Assembly (NCBI GenBank): GCA_944324465.1
Contig: CALUWI010000003.1
Coordinates: 62,001 to 126,000, forward strand
Length of the DNA stretch: 64,000 nucleotides
Reading direction: 5' to 3'
Origin: an uncultured Mucispirillum sp.
GTDB taxonomy: Bacteria; Chrysiogenota; Deferribacteres; Deferribacterales; Mucispirillaceae
In this document: positions 44,063 to 51,526 of the stretch, piece by piece
Position numbering within the stretch: position 1 is the stretch's first letter
Layout of the letters: each line of letters begins with the position of its first letter
Made by a program: the position numbers and the translations under genes
The notes under the pieces: generated by a model
Told to the model about the DNA's origin: nothing
What the model saw: the letters and a program-made list of their open reading frames with translations, nothing else
Database searches by the model: none

Positions 44063-44087
44063 AAGCCTGCTTATGCAGGCTTTTTTT
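44063..44087 (+). terminator. Rho-independent terminator of htpG
   Basis: AAGCCTGC-TTAT-GCAGGCTT (44063-44082) followed by TTTTT. Confidence 0.9.
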
Positions 44088-44157
44088 ATGTATTGAATTG
44101 TAGTTGTTTTGTTATGAAGTATAACTATATGGTAAATAAGGAATAATTTAAATTTAT

Positions 44158-44231
44158 TACACTTTTTATAAGGAAAAAATGTAAAATACTACACTTTTTG
44201 CAGGGAAAAAGTGCGAAATCTTACACTTTTT
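44158..44231 (+). repeat. Three 32-bp-spaced direct repeats upstream of the methylase-ATPase operon
   Basis: TACACTTTTT starts at 44158, 44190 and 44222, exactly 32 bases apart (three helical turns). The first two units also carry GGAAAAA, and the second forms an inverted repeat CACTTTTT/AAAAAGTG. This is iteron- or operator-like. No gene lies in 44088-44483. Confidence 0.7.
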
Positions 44232-44366
44232 ACAATGAAACTTATTTCTGCTATTATATAGCCTTAACTCAACAAACTCTGTAATATTCAAGCATAAAAT
44301 ATATAGTCTAGTATATTCATTTTTATAAAAAATTAGTTTACTTTTTATATGTATTTTTATATATTT

Positions 44367-44416
44367 ATAAACACATATAAACACATACATATACCTATAA
44401 ACACATTAAAACACTT
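44367..44416 (+). repeat. Ten-base phased ATAAACACAT repeats
   Basis: ATAAACACAT occurs at 44367, 44377 and 44397, with a degenerate fourth unit near 44407. All are on the same helical face, about 70-115 bases before the methylase start. They could bind a regulator or bend DNA. Confidence 0.65.
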
Positions 44417-44483
44417 TGAAGTATATTTAAATATTTATAAATACTTGAATATATTTTAAATAATGATAAAATAGAGCATCAGA

Positions 44484-45347
44484 ATGAAAAATACATATAC
44501 ACCATTAAGATATCCTGGTGGAAAAAGTAAACTGGCTAAACAATTTGAAATAATTTGTAAATCAAATAATATTGATATGTATATAGAGCCTTATGCAGGT
44601 GGATTTGGCATTGGTTTATATTTGCTTTTAAATAATATTGTAAAAAATGTTATTATAAATGATATTGACCCTCTTATACATTCTTTTTGGTATTCTATAT
44701 TAAAGCATAATAAAAAATTTATTAATATGATATATAATACAGATATTACAATGGATAACTGGTATAAGTATAAAGAAGTTATAAAAAATCATAGTGAATA
44801 TGATAAATTTACTGTTGGTTTTGCAACTTTTTTTATGAATAGAACAAACCGTTCTGGTATTATCAAAGCAGGAGTTATTGGTGGAAAAAATCAAAACGGC
44901 AACTATAAACTAGATGCTCGGTTTAAAAAAGATGAGTTAATAGAAAAAATAGAGCGTATTAATAAGTATAAAGATAGTATAAAACTTTATAAAAAAGATG
45001 CTTTACAGTTAATTAAATCTATAAAGAATAAACTTGATAATCATTCTTTAATATATTTTGACCCACCATATTATTATAATGCAAATACATTATATAATAA
45101 CTTTTATAAACCAGAAGACCATAAGAAAATCGGTAAGTTTATTCAAAAGTTAGATTATCCATGGATAGTTACTTACGATGATGTAAAAGAAATATCAGAT
45201 ATATACAGCAGTTCACAACAATTTAGCTATACATTAAATTACAGCATATCTAAATATAATAATAAAGGCAGCGAACTGCTGATATATAATGATATAAATA
45301 TTGATAAAGCAATATTTAATAATTCTTTGGAGTTATCATGTATATAA
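44484..45347 (+). CDS. D12-class (Dam-like) DNA adenine methyltransferase
   Basis: 287 residues. RYPGGKSKLA at residues 9-18 is the SAM-binding start of D12 enzymes, YIEPYAGGFGIGLYLL follows, and YFDPPYYYN at about 191 is the catalytic DPPY motif. FFMNRTNRSGII is also typical. It methylates adenine N6, presumably at a short site. The gene overlaps the ATPase gene by ten bases, so the two are co-translated and likely act together in defence. Confidence 0.9.
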   Translation: MKNTYTPLRYPGGKSKLAKQFEIICKSNNIDMYIEPYAGGFGIGLYLLLNNIVKNVIINDIDPLIHSFWYSILKHNKKFINMIYNTDITMDNWYKYKEVIKNHSEYDKFTVGFATFFMNRTNRSGIIKAGVIGGKNQNGNYKLDARFKKDELIEKIERINKYKDSIKLYKKDALQLIKSIKNKLDNHSLIYFDPPYYYNANTLYNNFYKPEDHKKIGKFIQKLDYPWIVTYDDVKEISDIYSSSQQFSYTLNYSISKYNNKGSELLIYNDINIDKAIFNNSLELSCI

Positions 45348-46996
45348 ACCAATTAGAAATTTATAATTTTAGAGCATTTTCAGGTAAAAAAATAGTACAA
45401 GATGAAAATGGTAATATGATAGAGAAAGAAATTCATTATAAATTTAATTTTGTTAATGGTTTAAATTGTATAGCAGGGCATAATGGTATAGGTAAATCAA
45501 CAATTTTAGCTATGCTTGGCAATTGTGGGGAATTAAAAGATGATTTTGCAACACATTTAAATGGCAGTAAATTTTGTGGAGATTATAAAGACATCATTAA
45601 AGGTAATCCAGCTCATGATCCAACAGGCAAAGTGTGTACTCTACATTTTTCTGATTTACCTTCAAATTACAGTTATTCTGAAACATATTTAGAAAGTCTT
45701 GAATTTAGGACAACTTTTCAATCAAATAATACAAGATATAGATTAATTCCAGTAAAAAATAGAAGTAGAAGAACGGAAAGTAAACTTATATGGCCAGTTT
45801 ATTATATGGGTTTATCAAGGTTGTATCCAGTTGGAGAATCTTCAAAAATATTTAATAGTTTATTATCAGAAGATATATTAAATGAAATAAAAGATGAATA
45901 TAAAAATATTATCCCGTCTCAAAATGATTATATCTCTGTATCAAGTGTTAGAATTACAGGGACAAAGAAAAAGCTAGGAGTTGGTGTTTCTACTGAAAAA
46001 TATAGTTATGAAGCAAATTCTGCAGGGCAGGATAATATAGGACAAATATTACTTTCTGTTTTATCGTTTAAAAAGTTAAAAGAAAAACTTGGTGATGAAT
46101 ATTTTGGTGGTTTATTACTAATTGATGAGATAGATGCATCTTTACATCCTGCTGCTCAATTAAAACTATTAGATTATCTTTACAAGCAATCACAAGAATT
46201 ATCTCTGCAAATTATTTTTACAAGTCATAGTATAAATGTTATAGATCACTTAATATCTAAAAGAGAAAAAGGAAAGATAGTAAATGTAGTTTACATTAAT
46301 ACATGCTATGGTTCAATTGATATTAGAGAAAATCCATCTAGTAGATTTGTACATAATAACTTAACAGAAAGTTATACAGGAATACCAGTATCTGTAAAAT
46401 TTACACTACTTACGGAAGATGATGTGGCTCGAAAATATTTGCAAGCCTTATTGAAGTATAAAGATTTTAAATATAATCATAAATTAGCAATACCAGATAT
46501 GAATATAGGTTGGGCTGAAATTATTAAATTAGTAACACATGACTTTTATAAATTTAAAGATGTTATTGTTGTTTTAGACCCAGATTTAAATAATATAAAA
46601 AAGCGAAGGGATCTAGAGGATAACTTAAGAGGTACTAAATATAAAATAAATACTCACAACAGCAGTATATTTATATTACCGGGCAATGACTGTATAGAAA
46701 CAATGATATGGAATTGGGTTTCTAATCTTGATGATGGACATAAATTATTTAAAGAAACTTATTTTTATGATAATGGTATAGCAAAAATAAATATCATAAA
46801 TCAAGGTCCCAATACAGCTTATTATGATAATATTGCATCAACATTAAATAAGGTTAAGCAATGGTATAAAGACAATGAGCATTTGATGGATACTATAATG
46901 CACTATATGATTGAAGAACTTGATAATAAGGGAGCATTAGATAATTTTTATAATAATTTTAATAAATTTGTAGAGATGTTAGTTTTTTCTAATTAA
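45338..46996 (+). CDS. OLD-like AAA ATPase with putative TOPRIM nuclease domain
   Basis: 552 residues. ABC/SMC-type ATPase: INQLEIYNFRAFSG start, Walker A GHNGIGKST (about 47-55), NSAGQDNIGQILLS signature region, Walker B LLLIDEIDASLHP (about 260-272) and the TSHS switch. The C-terminal part has LLTEDDVARKY and VIVVLDPDLNN (near 410), which look like the conserved Glu and DxD of an OLD-type TOPRIM nuclease. Paired with the methylase, it may act on unmethylated or foreign DNA. Its 3' end overlaps that of the convergent hsdS by 18 bases. Confidence 0.75.
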   Translation: MYINQLEIYNFRAFSGKKIVQDENGNMIEKEIHYKFNFVNGLNCIAGHNGIGKSTILAMLGNCGELKDDFATHLNGSKFCGDYKDIIKGNPAHDPTGKVCTLHFSDLPSNYSYSETYLESLEFRTTFQSNNTRYRLIPVKNRSRRTESKLIWPVYYMGLSRLYPVGESSKIFNSLLSEDILNEIKDEYKNIIPSQNDYISVSSVRITGTKKKLGVGVSTEKYSYEANSAGQDNIGQILLSVLSFKKLKEKLGDEYFGGLLLIDEIDASLHPAAQLKLLDYLYKQSQELSLQIIFTSHSINVIDHLISKREKGKIVNVVYINTCYGSIDIRENPSSRFVHNNLTESYTGIPVSVKFTLLTEDDVARKYLQALLKYKDFKYNHKLAIPDMNIGWAEIIKLVTHDFYKFKDVIVVLDPDLNNIKKRRDLEDNLRGTKYKINTHNSSIFILPGNDCIETMIWNWVSNLDDGHKLFKETYFYDNGIAKINIINQGPNTAYYDNIASTLNKVKQWYKDNEHLMDTIMHYMIEELDNKGALDNFYNNFNKFVEMLVFSN

Positions 46997-47716
46997 AAAT
47001 TCTTTTAAATTATTGCAATAGGTTAAGAGTTCATCAACTTTTTCAACAATTCTTTCCTGCTCTTTAAGTGGTGGCAGTGGAAAAATCAAAGTATTCATAT
47101 CATTTGAGTTTATTGCAGGATAGCTTGTGCCTCTTACAGCTTTATTTATTTGGAAAGAAAGCAATTCTGTATAGAATAAGTGATATAAAAATTTAGAATC
47201 TACAATATTATATGGAGTTAAAACAGCAAACCCTGTTGATACAATCATATCTTCTGAATTGAAATCTATATGTGCAAAACCTTTTAAATTTGGTCTAACT
47301 GTTGCAATAATAACATCATTTTTTTTAATAATTCGTCTAGCTCGTGATGGTGAATTTTTAAATATTATATTATTATCTGGTATATTTATTTGTCCAGTTT
47401 TAACAGCAGATAAATCAATATATTTAAAACTATAATTAGGATTTGTATCATTTTTGAGAGTATTTTTGTTAATTTCGCACACTTCCCCCAGTCTGACCCA
47501 TTTCCAGTTTTTAGGTATATCATAAGGTATTTCATCATCAGTGATAGGTGGTAGTGGTTTTTCTTTTTTTATTTTGCTTTGTTTTATTAAGTTTTCTTTT
47601 TCTGCTATTATTTTTTCATAAAGTATGCTTGCAGGTTCATCGTGTATATCCTGCGGAACTAATTTTCCTTCTACTGCATACTGTAAAATTGCTTTTCTTA
47701 AATCTGCTGCTTTCAT
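46979..47716 (-). CDS. hsdS: Type I restriction specificity subunit HsdS, half-size (one TRD)
   Basis: 245 residues; normal HsdS has about 400 and two target-recognition domains. Here one conserved region (MKAADLRKAILQYAVEGKLV), one recognition domain (IPKNWKWVRLGEVCEI...GTSYPAINSNDM) and one spacer (LPPLKEQERIVEKVDELL) are present, then the protein stops at KEFLIRKN. It may work as a homodimer recognising a palindromic split site, or be truncated by arrival of the converging methylase-ATPase module. It starts directly after the hsdM stop. Confidence 0.8.
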   Translation of the reverse strand: MKAADLRKAILQYAVEGKLVPQDIHDEPASILYEKIIAEKENLIKQSKIKKEKPLPPITDDEIPYDIPKNWKWVRLGEVCEINKNTLKNDTNPNYSFKYIDLSAVKTGQINIPDNNIIFKNSPSRARRIIKKNDVIIATVRPNLKGFAHIDFNSEDMIVSTGFAVLTPYNIVDSKFLYHLFYTELLSFQINKAVRGTSYPAINSNDMNTLIFPLPPLKEQERIVEKVDELLTYCNNLKEFLIRKN

Positions 47717-49153
47717 TTATACATCTCTTTTCATAACTTCTTCTATTGTATTAAGCAGGTTATTAATATTTTCAGTTATTTCTTGCCTTTCTAATTTATA
47801 GTTTTCCATAAATTCATAAGGATTTAATATTTCTTCTTCCTCATGTGGAAATCCGCAGAAATCAAGGTTATAATTATTTGCAATAATTTCATCTATACTT
47901 ATAAGCTTTGATACATCACTTATCTCTCTATTATTCCACCAGGCACGCACTGGGTCAAAATGAATATCAAGCATAGGGCGGGTTTTAGAAAAATGTTTAT
48001 ATCCTTCTGGCATTTCTAGCCTGTAATACCAAATATTTTCTGTTTTTTTGCCTTTTTCAAAAAATAAAAGGTTAGTATTAATATTTGTATAAGGTGCAAA
48101 CACATCATTAGGAAGTCTTATAATAGTATGCAGGTTACATTCTTCTAAAAGTTTCTTTTTTATACTTGTTTTTACATTACTGCCAAATAAAAAACCATCT
48201 GGCAGGACAAGGCCGCATCTGCCATTTTCTTTTAATAAATACATAATATGTACCATAAATAAATCGGCAGTTTCTTTTGACCTTAAGTTACTTGGCACAG
48301 AGCTTGTAACTGCATCTTCTTCAGCTCCGCCAAAAGGTGGGTTTGTTACAATAATATCCACTAAATCATTATCGTTATAATCTGCAACAGGTGTGCGGAG
48401 TGTATTATCGTTTATAATATTTGGCACATCTATATTATGCAATATTAAGTTTGTAACACATAATATATGTGGATATGGTTTTTTCTCTATACCTTTAATA
48501 TTTGTTTGTAACAGTTTATAGTCTTCTGGAGTATTTAATGTATATCTATCTATTACACTTGTTAAAAAGCCGCCTGTTCCACATGCAGGGTCCAGCACTT
48601 TTTCATGAATTTTAGGGTCTATCATTTCCACTATAAATTTAGTAACAGGGCGGGGTGTATAAAATTCTCCAGATTTACCTGCACTTTGCAGGTCTTTAAG
48701 CATTGTTTCATATATATCATTAAATAAATGGAAATCAGGCATAGCAGTAAAATCAAGCTCTTTATTTAATTTATTAATTACCTGCCTAAGTAATGTGCCA
48801 GATTTCATATAATTTATAACATCATTTATGGTAGTTTTTAAAAGCCATTTGCGTTTTGTTTTATCATCATAGGTTTCAAGAGATTTAATATCATCAAACA
48901 TATGTTCAATAAATTTTAAAAGCTCATCGCCAGTAATACCTTCATCCTGAGCTGCCCAGTTACGCCATTGATACATTGTAGGCATAACAGGTTTGTAGTT
49001 ATCTTCTAAAAGTTCCCATTCCTGCTCTTTATAATCAAAAGCTTTTAAAAATAAAAGCCATGCAATCTGCCCTATATATTGAGCATCACCATTTATACCT
49101 TCATCCATTCTCATTATATCTTTTAAAGCTTTTGTTAAGCCTGATATTGCCAT
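47717..49153 (-). CDS. hsdM: Type I restriction-modification methyltransferase subunit HsdM
   Basis: 478 residues. LDPACGTGGFLTS near 187 binds SAM and IVTNPPFGG near 270 is the catalytic NPPF motif. The N-terminal helical domain (GLTKALKDIMRMDEGINGD) and GEFYTPRPVTKFIVEMIDP are typical. It methylates adenine in the HsdS-defined site and forms the core of the restriction complex. No frame damage. Confidence 0.95.
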   Translation of the reverse strand: MAISGLTKALKDIMRMDEGINGDAQYIGQIAWLLFLKAFDYKEQEWELLEDNYKPVMPTMYQWRNWAAQDEGITGDELLKFIEHMFDDIKSLETYDDKTKRKWLLKTTINDVINYMKSGTLLRQVINKLNKELDFTAMPDFHLFNDIYETMLKDLQSAGKSGEFYTPRPVTKFIVEMIDPKIHEKVLDPACGTGGFLTSVIDRYTLNTPEDYKLLQTNIKGIEKKPYPHILCVTNLILHNIDVPNIINDNTLRTPVADYNDNDLVDIIVTNPPFGGAEEDAVTSSVPSNLRSKETADLFMVHIMYLLKENGRCGLVLPDGFLFGSNVKTSIKKKLLEECNLHTIIRLPNDVFAPYTNINTNLLFFEKGKKTENIWYYRLEMPEGYKHFSKTRPMLDIHFDPVRAWWNNREISDVSKLISIDEIIANNYNLDFCGFPHEEEEILNPYEFMENYKLERQEITENINNLLNTIEEVMKRDV

Positions 49154-49162
49154 TTCTACCTC

Positions 49163-51526
49163 TTATGCTGCATAAATTTCATTTTCAAGTTCTTTTATAA
49201 TATTTTCAAAATTTTTTCTACCTTTAAATATGGTATTTAATATATACATTGGATTGCCTATTTTATTTACAGGCTCCAGCTTTAATATATCTATAGTTTC
49301 TAAATTTCTTATGTCAGTTTCTGCATATTTATCAAGCAGGGCACTTATAACTTCCTGCACTTTAGTACCATATTTTGCAAAATAGTTGCGTTTTTTTACA
49401 TTTGCTATACGCTCTTTTTTAGTTAATGGGGGTTTGTCATAAGCTATATGGCAAAGCATATCAAAAGGGTCTAAATCTTTTTTTGTGTTTGCCTTTAATT
49501 CTTCCATAAATATACCAGCTTTTTCCATTTCATCTATTATTATAGATTTTTTCTCAGCACTATTCCAAGCCTGTAGAAAATTATCAAGGGTGGCATACTT
49601 GTTTTTTATATTTTTTCTTGTATAGTCTTTAAATGATTCAGTTATAAGTTTGCCATTATAATCTAAATATTTTACTAAATCTTTTAAAACTGATACTTCC
49701 ACATTATCAACATAATATTTTTTTGGCTCATTACTTGTAAGGGGCAGGGAAGTGTCTTGTTTTTTCTCATTTTCTTCTTTTTCTGCTGTTTCTGCTGTAA
49801 GTGTTTCATCATCAAATTTATATTTTTTGCCTTTTGTAGTTATGTCGTATTCTTCACTTTTCAGTGGTTCGCCGTCAAAGGCAGCATCAGCAAAAAGCCT
49901 TGTAACATTTCTAAAATCAATTATAGTAAAGTAAAGCTTGTTTTTTTCTTCTACAAGCCTTGTGCCTCTGCCTATAATCTGCTTAAATTCTATTATGCTG
50001 TTTATATTGCTGTCTATTACTATAAACTCTACAGTTTTAGTATCAACTCCAGTAGATAAAAGTTTAGATGTGGTAACTAAAACTGGGTAGCTTGAGTTTT
50101 TATTGCAAAAGTTTTCTATTTGGTTTTTACCTTCTTCATTATCACTTGTTATCTGCATAACATATTTATCATTTATTTTTACCATATCTGCATTTTCATT
50201 AACTAGAGCCTGCCGCATAAATGCTGCATGTTCTTGATTTACACAGAAAAATATTGTTTTTGCCATCCGCTTATTATGAGCTTTTAAGTAGTCAGATACA
50301 TATTTTGCAACAGTTTCTGTTCGTTTGCCTAAAAATAGTGTTCTGTCAAAATCTTTATCGTTATATTCTCTATCTTCTATTAAGTTACCATATTTATCTT
50401 TTTGGTTGCGTTCTGGGCGAAAGCCTTCCACATCTTTATCTAATATTACGCGTATTACTTTATATGGTGCCAGAAAACCATCTTCTATACCCTGCTTTAA
50501 AGAGTATGTATATACTGGCTCTCCAAAGTATGAAATATTAGATACTTCTTTATTTTCTTTTGGTGTGGCTGTAAGTCCAATTTGTGCAGCATTGTCAAAA
50601 TATTCTAATACTTCACGCCACTGGCTGTTTTCACTTGCACTGCCCCTGTGGCACTCATCAACTATTACTAAATCAAAAAAATCTTTGCTAAACTGTTTAA
50701 ATATATTTTTTGTATCATCCTGCCCTGTAATACTCTGATATAGTGCTAAATATATCTGGTAAGATTTATCAACTTTTCTATTTGTTACCATCGTCATATT
50801 TTTTTTAAATGGTGAAAAATCACCAGTATATGTTTGGTCGCGTAAAGCTTCCCTGTCTGCTAAAAAGAGTATTCTTTTTTTAATACCAGCTTTCCAAAGC
50901 CGCCATGCAATTTGGAAAGCTACATAAGTTTTGCCAGTTCCTGTTGCCATTACTAGAAAAACTCTTTTTTCTCCATTAATTATGGCATTATATGTATTAT
51001 TAACAGCATTAAGCTGATAATATCTAGGCATTTTGTCATTTTCTGTATAATATGATGAGCTTAGCTGTTTTTCTTTTATGCTGTCTATATTATTATATTT
51101 TTTATATATATCCATAAGTGTATCTGGGGAAGGAAATTCAGCAAGACTTATTTCTCTTTCTATTTTTTCATTTTCACTTGCATATTTATTATGAAAAAGA
51201 AAGCCATCACCATTTGATGAAAATACAAATGGAATATTAAGCATTTCTGCATACCCTAAAGCCTGCTGCATTCCATCTGATATTTTATGTTTATTGTCTT
51301 TTGCTTCAATTACTGCAATAGGTGTATGAAAATTATAAAAAAGCACATAATCTGCTCGTTTAATAGTATTAATATCACGAATACATGTATTATGCCTTGC
51401 AATAATTCTGCCTGCTGTAAGCTGGTATTCTTCTCTTATCTGGTGTTCCTGCCAACCTGAATTTTTAATAGCAGGTGTAATATATCTTGTGCGTATTTCC
51501 TGTTCAGTAAGCTCTTTTTTATCCAT
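49163..51526 (-). CDS. hsdR: Type I restriction endonuclease subunit HsdR
   Basis: 787 residues. PIAVIEAKDNKHKISDGMQQALGYAE near 70 is the PD-(D/E)XK nuclease core. The SF2 translocase has Walker A MATGTGKTYVAF near 195, VDECHRG, IGLTATPKE and IGRGTRL. It cleaves DNA after translocation when the site is unmethylated. First gene of the R-M-S operon on the minus strand; intact. Confidence 0.95.
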   Translation of the reverse strand: MDKKELTEQEIRTRYITPAIKNSGWQEHQIREEYQLTAGRIIARHNTCIRDINTIKRADYVLFYNFHTPIAVIEAKDNKHKISDGMQQALGYAEMLNIPFVFSSNGDGFLFHNKYASENEKIEREISLAEFPSPDTLMDIYKKYNNIDSIKEKQLSSSYYTENDKMPRYYQLNAVNNTYNAIINGEKRVFLVMATGTGKTYVAFQIAWRLWKAGIKKRILFLADREALRDQTYTGDFSPFKKNMTMVTNRKVDKSYQIYLALYQSITGQDDTKNIFKQFSKDFFDLVIVDECHRGSASENSQWREVLEYFDNAAQIGLTATPKENKEVSNISYFGEPVYTYSLKQGIEDGFLAPYKVIRVILDKDVEGFRPERNQKDKYGNLIEDREYNDKDFDRTLFLGKRTETVAKYVSDYLKAHNKRMAKTIFFCVNQEHAAFMRQALVNENADMVKINDKYVMQITSDNEEGKNQIENFCNKNSSYPVLVTTSKLLSTGVDTKTVEFIVIDSNINSIIEFKQIIGRGTRLVEEKNKLYFTIIDFRNVTRLFADAAFDGEPLKSEEYDITTKGKKYKFDDETLTAETAEKEENEKKQDTSLPLTSNEPKKYYVDNVEVSVLKDLVKYLDYNGKLITESFKDYTRKNIKNKYATLDNFLQAWNSAEKKSIIIDEMEKAGIFMEELKANTKKDLDPFDMLCHIAYDKPPLTKKERIANVKKRNYFAKYGTKVQEVISALLDKYAETDIRNLETIDILKLEPVNKIGNPMYILNTIFKGRKNFENIIKELENEIYAA

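Follow-up and report, generated by a model that had tools for sequence, protein, structure and literature searches.

A D12-class N6-adenine DNA methyltransferase gene and a gene for an OLD-like ABC ATPase/TOPRIM protein were found together on the forward strand of the window (the whole 64,000 nt stretch of Mucispirillum DNA analysed; coordinates 44484 to 45347 and 45338 to 46996, respectively), and the pair is a conserved association found across many bacteria and phages. With moderate confidence, it is considered to be a two-gene restriction-modification (RM)-like phage-defence module that combines a conserved self-mark with exchangeable effectors, the defence and cleavage functions being putative. 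In such a module, the methylase would place N6-methyladenine on one sequence motif of the DNA of the cell or prophage, and the OLD-type protein would be the effector, with ATP-driven engagement on DNA lacking the mark activating its TOPRIM nuclease. The methylase would be the fixed part, and the place of its partner would be open to at least five OLD subfamilies, the ParB-like PD-Lambda-5_A or HerA-containing gene sets. An antiviral role is probable from the context, namely prophages, a hotspot containing RM genes and exchange with an NsnABC-type set, and the marking of self with cutting of non-self is plausible.

The methylase gene encodes a 287 aa protein that includes a MethyltransfD12 domain with the DPPY motif (Pfam PF02086, E=1.9e-16) and also matches phrog_56 (1.2e-45). 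Residues 1-272 match the 291-position PADLOC model PDLC04018 (4.9e-111), placing the protein in the PD-Lambda-5_B family. In the methylase alignment, E35, G39 and G40 in the motif I region EPYAGGFG (residues 35-42; coordinates 44586 to 44609) and the motif IV sequence DPPY (residues 193-196; 45060 to 45071) are invariant. Conservation within the family is highest in a putative target-recognition segment (residues 112-152, NRTNRSGIIKAGVIGG..Q.GNYKLDARF; 44817 to 44939), the mean top-residue fraction over residues 115-150 being 0.77, compared with 0.44-0.49 in stretches outside the catalytic motifs. This segment is nearly identical in methylases that have an OLD, PD-Lambda-5_A or HerA partner. 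As the putative recognition segment is both the most conserved part and nearly constant whatever the partner, the alignment suggests a single methylation motif for all partner classes, and such constancy is the expectation if different effectors read one mark.

The second gene shares 10 bp (45338 to 45347) with the 3'-end of the methylase gene, an overlap reported in the initial annotation and also present in a related genome of the genus (G005). It encodes a protein of 552 aa that belongs to the phrog_3940 family (4.7e-98 over residues 34-545) and matches Pfam AAA_15 (1.7e-15) and AAA_21 (1.6e-13). Residue conservation was assessed using 40 diverse homologues with identity to the window protein down to 24%, and all residues of the ABC motifs listed here were invariant: G47, N49 and K53 of the Walker A sequence GHNGIGKS (residues 47-54; 45476 to 45499), S228, G230 and D232 of the S-x-G-x-D signature (residues 228-232; 46019 to 46033), D263 and E264 of the Walker B sequence LLIDE (residues 260-264; 46115 to 46129), and H297 of the H-loop. 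The TOPRIM signature consists of a Glu and a DxD motif, and both E360-D361, which includes the predicted catalytic Glu (46415 to 46420), and D414-P-D416 (46577 to 46585) are likewise invariant. So is K507 in the C-terminal helical domain (46856 to 46858), and its position suggests that it may be equivalent to K562 of BpOLD, which may be the catalytic lysine in that protein (PMC6755086).

A full-length model of the protein obtained with AlphaFold2 from the homologue alignment (pLDDT 88.5) had the OLD nuclease 6p74 (3.2e-13), GajA and the Retron-Eco8 effector as its best PDB matches in Foldseek, the Retron-Eco8 structures 9x9b and 9lpa being strong matches. However, TM-scores for these full-length matches were low (~0.3), hence the domain orientation was not reproduced. 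When the C-terminal 215 residues were folded alone (pLDDT 92, pTM 0.86), the top five PDB matches were weak (E 0.012-0.076, TM ~0.4), but all were to C-termini of Class 2 OLD proteins. A search of PDB sequences with a C-terminal sequence profile found nothing relevant, and the TOPRIM assignment therefore rests on motifs and fold. The initial description of a methylase paired with an OLD-like ATPase/TOPRIM protein, including the TOPRIM fold, is supported by these domain matches, invariant motifs and weak fold matches. By its predicted architecture, an N-terminal ABC ATPase and a C-terminal TOPRIM domain, the second protein is an OLD nuclease, with putative metal-dependent cleavage of DNA or RNA.

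The pair was also compared with known systems. PD-Lambda-5, for which phage defence has been measured and which its discoverers (Vassallo et al. 2022) regard as a compacted RM+Abi system of prophages (PMC9519451), has the same methylase family (PD-Lambda-5_B), is prophage-borne and consists of two components, and some loci hold an OLD gene, PD-Lambda-5_A and the methylase. However, the partner in the window is the OLD/TOPRIM protein. PD-Lambda-5_A was not among the PADLOC matches listed for the pair or the hsd genes, and a genome-wide search with PDLC04017, one of ~25 PD-Lambda-5_A models, found no match. The pair was therefore not assigned to PD-Lambda-5, as the A component was absent by that search although the methylase belongs to the B family.

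Gabija (GajAB), which includes a Class 2 OLD protein, shares the ABC ATPase with C-terminal TOPRIM, and the isolated C-terminus was closest in fold to Class 2 C-termini, but the window pair has a DNA methylase as partner in place of the UvrD-like GajB helicase. Identity with Gabija or a Class 2 OLD system was rejected because no UvrD-like GajB gene is adjacent, the neighbours being the D12 methylase gene and hsdS. PARIS (AriA/AriB) also couples an OLD-type ATPase to a TOPRIM, and the AriA model in PADLOC matched the OLD-like protein (1.5e-15). Here the TOPRIM is fused to the ATPase and the partner is a methylase, and PARIS was rejected as the TOPRIM motifs lie within the ATPase chain and no separate AriB or second TOPRIM gene is adjacent. 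Retron Eco8 resembles the pair in having an OLD effector (Class 3) in a phage-defence operon, but the pair has no adjacent reverse transcriptase or Rfam RNA. A retron or Class 3 OLD identity was rejected because the neighbouring genes include no RT and the window has no Rfam match.

Class 1 OLD proteins (P2 Old, TsOLD) are likewise single-chain ATPase-TOPRIM proteins, and TsOLD (6p74) was the best full-length Foldseek match. However, Class 1 proteins have stand-alone genes (PMC10568477), and the gene in the window overlaps the methylase gene and is part of a conserved pairing. Type II RM systems resemble the pair in joining a methylase to a nuclease, with the same self-mark logic proposed here, but have a classical restriction endonuclease where the pair has an ABC-ATPase OLD protein. 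No REase family matches were found in the pair using Pfam and PADLOC, and the OLD protein is the predicted nuclease. The initial annotation could not assign the pair to a named system. This holds for the pair, which corresponds to no named system in PADLOC 2023, but not for its components, as the methylase is of the PD-Lambda-5_B family and the nuclease of the OLD family. No literature naming the pair was found, though an Aravind-group survey of ABC ATPases may mention it. Both parts are known already.

The OLD protein alone served as the query for collecting loci, and the sources were phages, plasmids, GTDB genomes and viral contigs; an alignment query was needed, as the single window protein found no match in genome contigs. 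The count was restricted to the 127 loci whose flanking sequence extended 2.5 kb or more on both sides, and a D12 methylase gene was present within 1.6 kb of the OLD gene in 112 and within 350 bp in 103, and the expected co-occurrence of the two genes in other genomes was thus borne out. The methylase matches near OLD genes numbered 151, and 131 of them were within 350 bp and only nine beyond 1.6 kb. The usual order was OLD followed by methylase on the same strand (n=117), and the window order, methylase then OLD on the same strand, was rarer (n=21), with a convergent arrangement found five times. From this variation, the two genes could be neighbours by chance, one an orphan methylase gene and the other a solitary (Class 1) OLD gene unrelated to it. 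However, the spacing within 350 bp is found across many phyla and phages, and the methylase and OLD distance matrices are correlated (Mantel r=0.41, with a maximum of 0.11 under the null). Chance is contradicted by these pairing statistics and is very improbable.

OLD loci without a D12 methylase gene were few, and four of them were found among other RM genes. In loci L038 and L048, an OLD relative is carried within a system of an NgoPII-type REase and a C5 methylase (L038:4830-7114; L048:5093-8525), and in L048 it is located between these two genes. In L045 and L062, it is found among type I RM genes, in L045 between hsdM and hsdS (L045:4407-8723). OLD proteins may be general accessory partners of RM systems.

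The pair is carried by Streptococcus phages Javan645 and phiGBSVK-D, Vibrio phage ValB1MD-2 and Citrobacter phage phiNP. In most of these phages, the pair is near the integrase or repressor gene, and a version in Escherichia coli prophages was found in 85 of 5426 complete genomes, counting one subtype alone. The many copies located in prophage lysogeny regions would fit a prophage exclusion or addiction pair, in which the OLD protein is a toxin and the sole role of the methylase, through the protein or its mark, is protection of the carrier. A precedent is P2 Old, which acts in prophage exclusion and is lethal to recBC cells (PMC10568477). Phage defence would then be incidental, or the methylase would mainly shield the phage from host restriction. 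However, the copy in the window and those related to it are on the chromosome, at a site that has RM genes alongside and where an NsnABC-type set can take their place, and anti-restriction alone would not explain why OLD genes are rare without the methylase. This explanation is considered improbable.

The methylase family was also found with other partners. PD-Lambda-5_A, which appears to be ParB-like from its N-terminal sequence rather than from a Pfam match, is the sole partner in three phages, and methylase, OLD and PD-Lambda-5_A genes occur together in several loci (L018, L042, L067, L070, L073, L102 and L141). HerA-type genes are the partner in a Vibrio phage. This phage, 10N.286.54.E5 (L205:4381-7852), carries the methylase with HerA/P-loop genes and a gene for a 459 aa protein with no PADLOC match, possibly a further partner class, and similar genes are present in L031 and L066.

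Exchange is also seen among the OLD proteins. With OLD subfamilies defined by clustering and their labels placed on a quick methylase tree in which some branches are unsure, at least 26 subfamily changes were counted, compared with a minimum of 4 under strict co-inheritance and a mean of 50 for shuffled labels. Several exchanges fall between well-supported sister tips. The methylases of L125 and L145 are 91% identical and those of L086 and L123 80% identical, but the OLD proteins share only 24% identity in both cases. Such repeated re-pairing of the methylase with different nucleases suggests a single DNA mark that is common to interchangeable weapons. Tentatively, the family may be a methylation-anchored platform in which one conserved D12 methylase provides a common self-mark for exchangeable effector cassettes. 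The effectors would be at least five OLD-TOPRIM subfamilies, the ParB-like PD-Lambda-5_A and the HerA sets, sometimes two together, and defence would evolve through a change of effector.

The same exchange was seen at the site of the pair in the genus. Relatives encode methylases 87-92% identical to that in the window with OLD proteins that are either 66% or ~26% identical, the genes for the latter being inverted. G005 has the layout of the window (methylase 91%, OLD 66%). In G003, the upstream region and methylase gene are kept (86% nucleotide identity over 44065 to 45290), as is the hsdM/hsdR side (95%), but the OLD gene between these two parts encodes a protein of a different subfamily (~26% identity), is inverted and overlaps the 3'-end of the methylase gene. 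An OLD gene of the same subfamily is located beside htpG in G004. At this location, the OLD gene has therefore been replaced and its methylase gene stays. In G009, the same position between htpG and hsdS carries a set listed by PADLOC as NsnABC-type (L199:3456-6348), which encodes a GmrSD_N-domain protein, an ATPase and a third protein, and no methylase/OLD pair is present at the site in G006 and G007. The contents of the site in these six genomes (G003, G004, G005, G006, G007 and G009) indicate that the stretch from htpG to a nuclease gene is a defence hotspot. The G004 hotspot also includes a nuclease-like gene with a NERD domain and a topoisomerase-type zinc finger (L187:2905-3672), and a possibly related gene is present in G003 (L186:9713-10360).

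The neighbouring type I restriction system noted initially was found, from gene calls and domain matches, to be an hsdS-hsdM-hsdR operon (46979 to 51526, reverse strand) convergent to the pair and 84-95% identical at the nucleotide level in G005 and G003. It is a neighbour in the hotspot, outside the pair. The hsdS gene in the window (46979 to 47716) is half-length, encoding 245 aa with one recognition domain, compared with 487-491 aa and two domains in G003 and G005. A deletion between internal repeats probably led to this half-S subunit with changed specificity.

Two sets of repeats are present ahead of the methylase gene, as noted initially. Three copies of TACACTTTTT start at 44158, 44190 and 44222, at a spacing of 32 bp (44158 to 44231), and copies of ATAAACACAT start at 44367, 44377 and 44397, at spacings of 10 and 20 bp (44367 to 44406). 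An exact 10-mer occurring three times at equal spacing was not seen in 3000 dinucleotide shuffles of the 449 bp intergenic region (20% GC). The initial view that these repeats are part of the system was, however, abandoned. The 32 bp array is upstream of the methylase gene in G003 but beside the hotspot nuclease gene in G005 and in G007, which has no methylase/OLD pair. In G009, the htpG-side match extends into the repeat region ahead of the NsnABC-type set. The ATAAACACAT repeats are kept in G003, and neither type is present ahead of the methylase gene in G005 and G004. The repeats thus belong to the locus and not to the module, and a regulatory, CRISPR-like or retron element was rejected, as an Rfam search of the window gave no match, the array is found beside other hotspot genes and the repeats are missing in G005 and G004. 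Arrays of 32 bp period, TTACACTTTTT...AAAAAGTG, occur at differing hotspot positions in several genomes of the genus (44158 to 44231; L185:9036-9119; L202:9292-9419), and two partial copies are found elsewhere in the genome that includes the window.

The position of the pair facing a type I RM operon, together with the OLD relatives among type I RM genes in L045 and L062, speaks for the main rival explanation, a back-up abortive-infection effector. The OLD protein would then not discriminate DNA, and the methylase would be a guarded component. The OLD protein would sense that a phage disturbs methylation or the adjacent RM system, for example by a DNA-mimic anti-restriction protein, and its TOPRIM nuclease would attack host tRNA or DNA, leading to cell death as with AriAB. 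In PARIS, Ocr triggers a TOPRIM tRNase that is coupled to an OLD ATPase, and a back-up effector role in BREX/RM-like systems has been described for OLD-ABC modules (PMC12839542); the RM+Abi description of PD-Lambda-5 (PMC9519451) points in the same direction. However, most loci, including prophages, contain only the methylase and OLD genes, and no restriction enzyme that could be guarded was seen alongside. Coverage of the protein by AriA-type models is also incomplete, and its TOPRIM is fused rather than separate. This explanation is considered rather unlikely, though less so than an exclusion or addiction pair.

Some evidence also argues against the RM-like module. Most of the OLD nucleases that have been tested elsewhere lack sequence specificity, and abortive infection is the mode of action of some (PMC10568477). 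No obvious DNA-specificity domain that could read the mark was found in the OLD-like protein, and the free exchange of OLD subfamilies could mean that the OLD protein is independent of the methylation motif. The weak C-terminal fold matches and the PDB profile search also weigh against it. Nevertheless, as OLD genes are rare without a DNA methylase gene, the methylase is found with other effectors, and the effector varies while the putative recognition segment is constant, the self-mark model is the most economical.

The pairs with near-identical methylases and different OLD proteins would make swap experiments almost free of confounders, and how OLD nucleases could be prevented from attacking host DNA would become cleanly testable. 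A candidate function is also suggested for phrog_3940, a phage protein family listed as unknown, and for the gene pair of the 85 E. coli genomes. Three parts described separately, orphan-looking prophage adenine methylases, OLD nucleases and PD-Lambda-5, would be joined in one modular family. In type I RM systems, the specificity varies and the nuclease is constant. If the platform exists, the reverse would apply in this family, with the weapon changing and the mark remaining constant.
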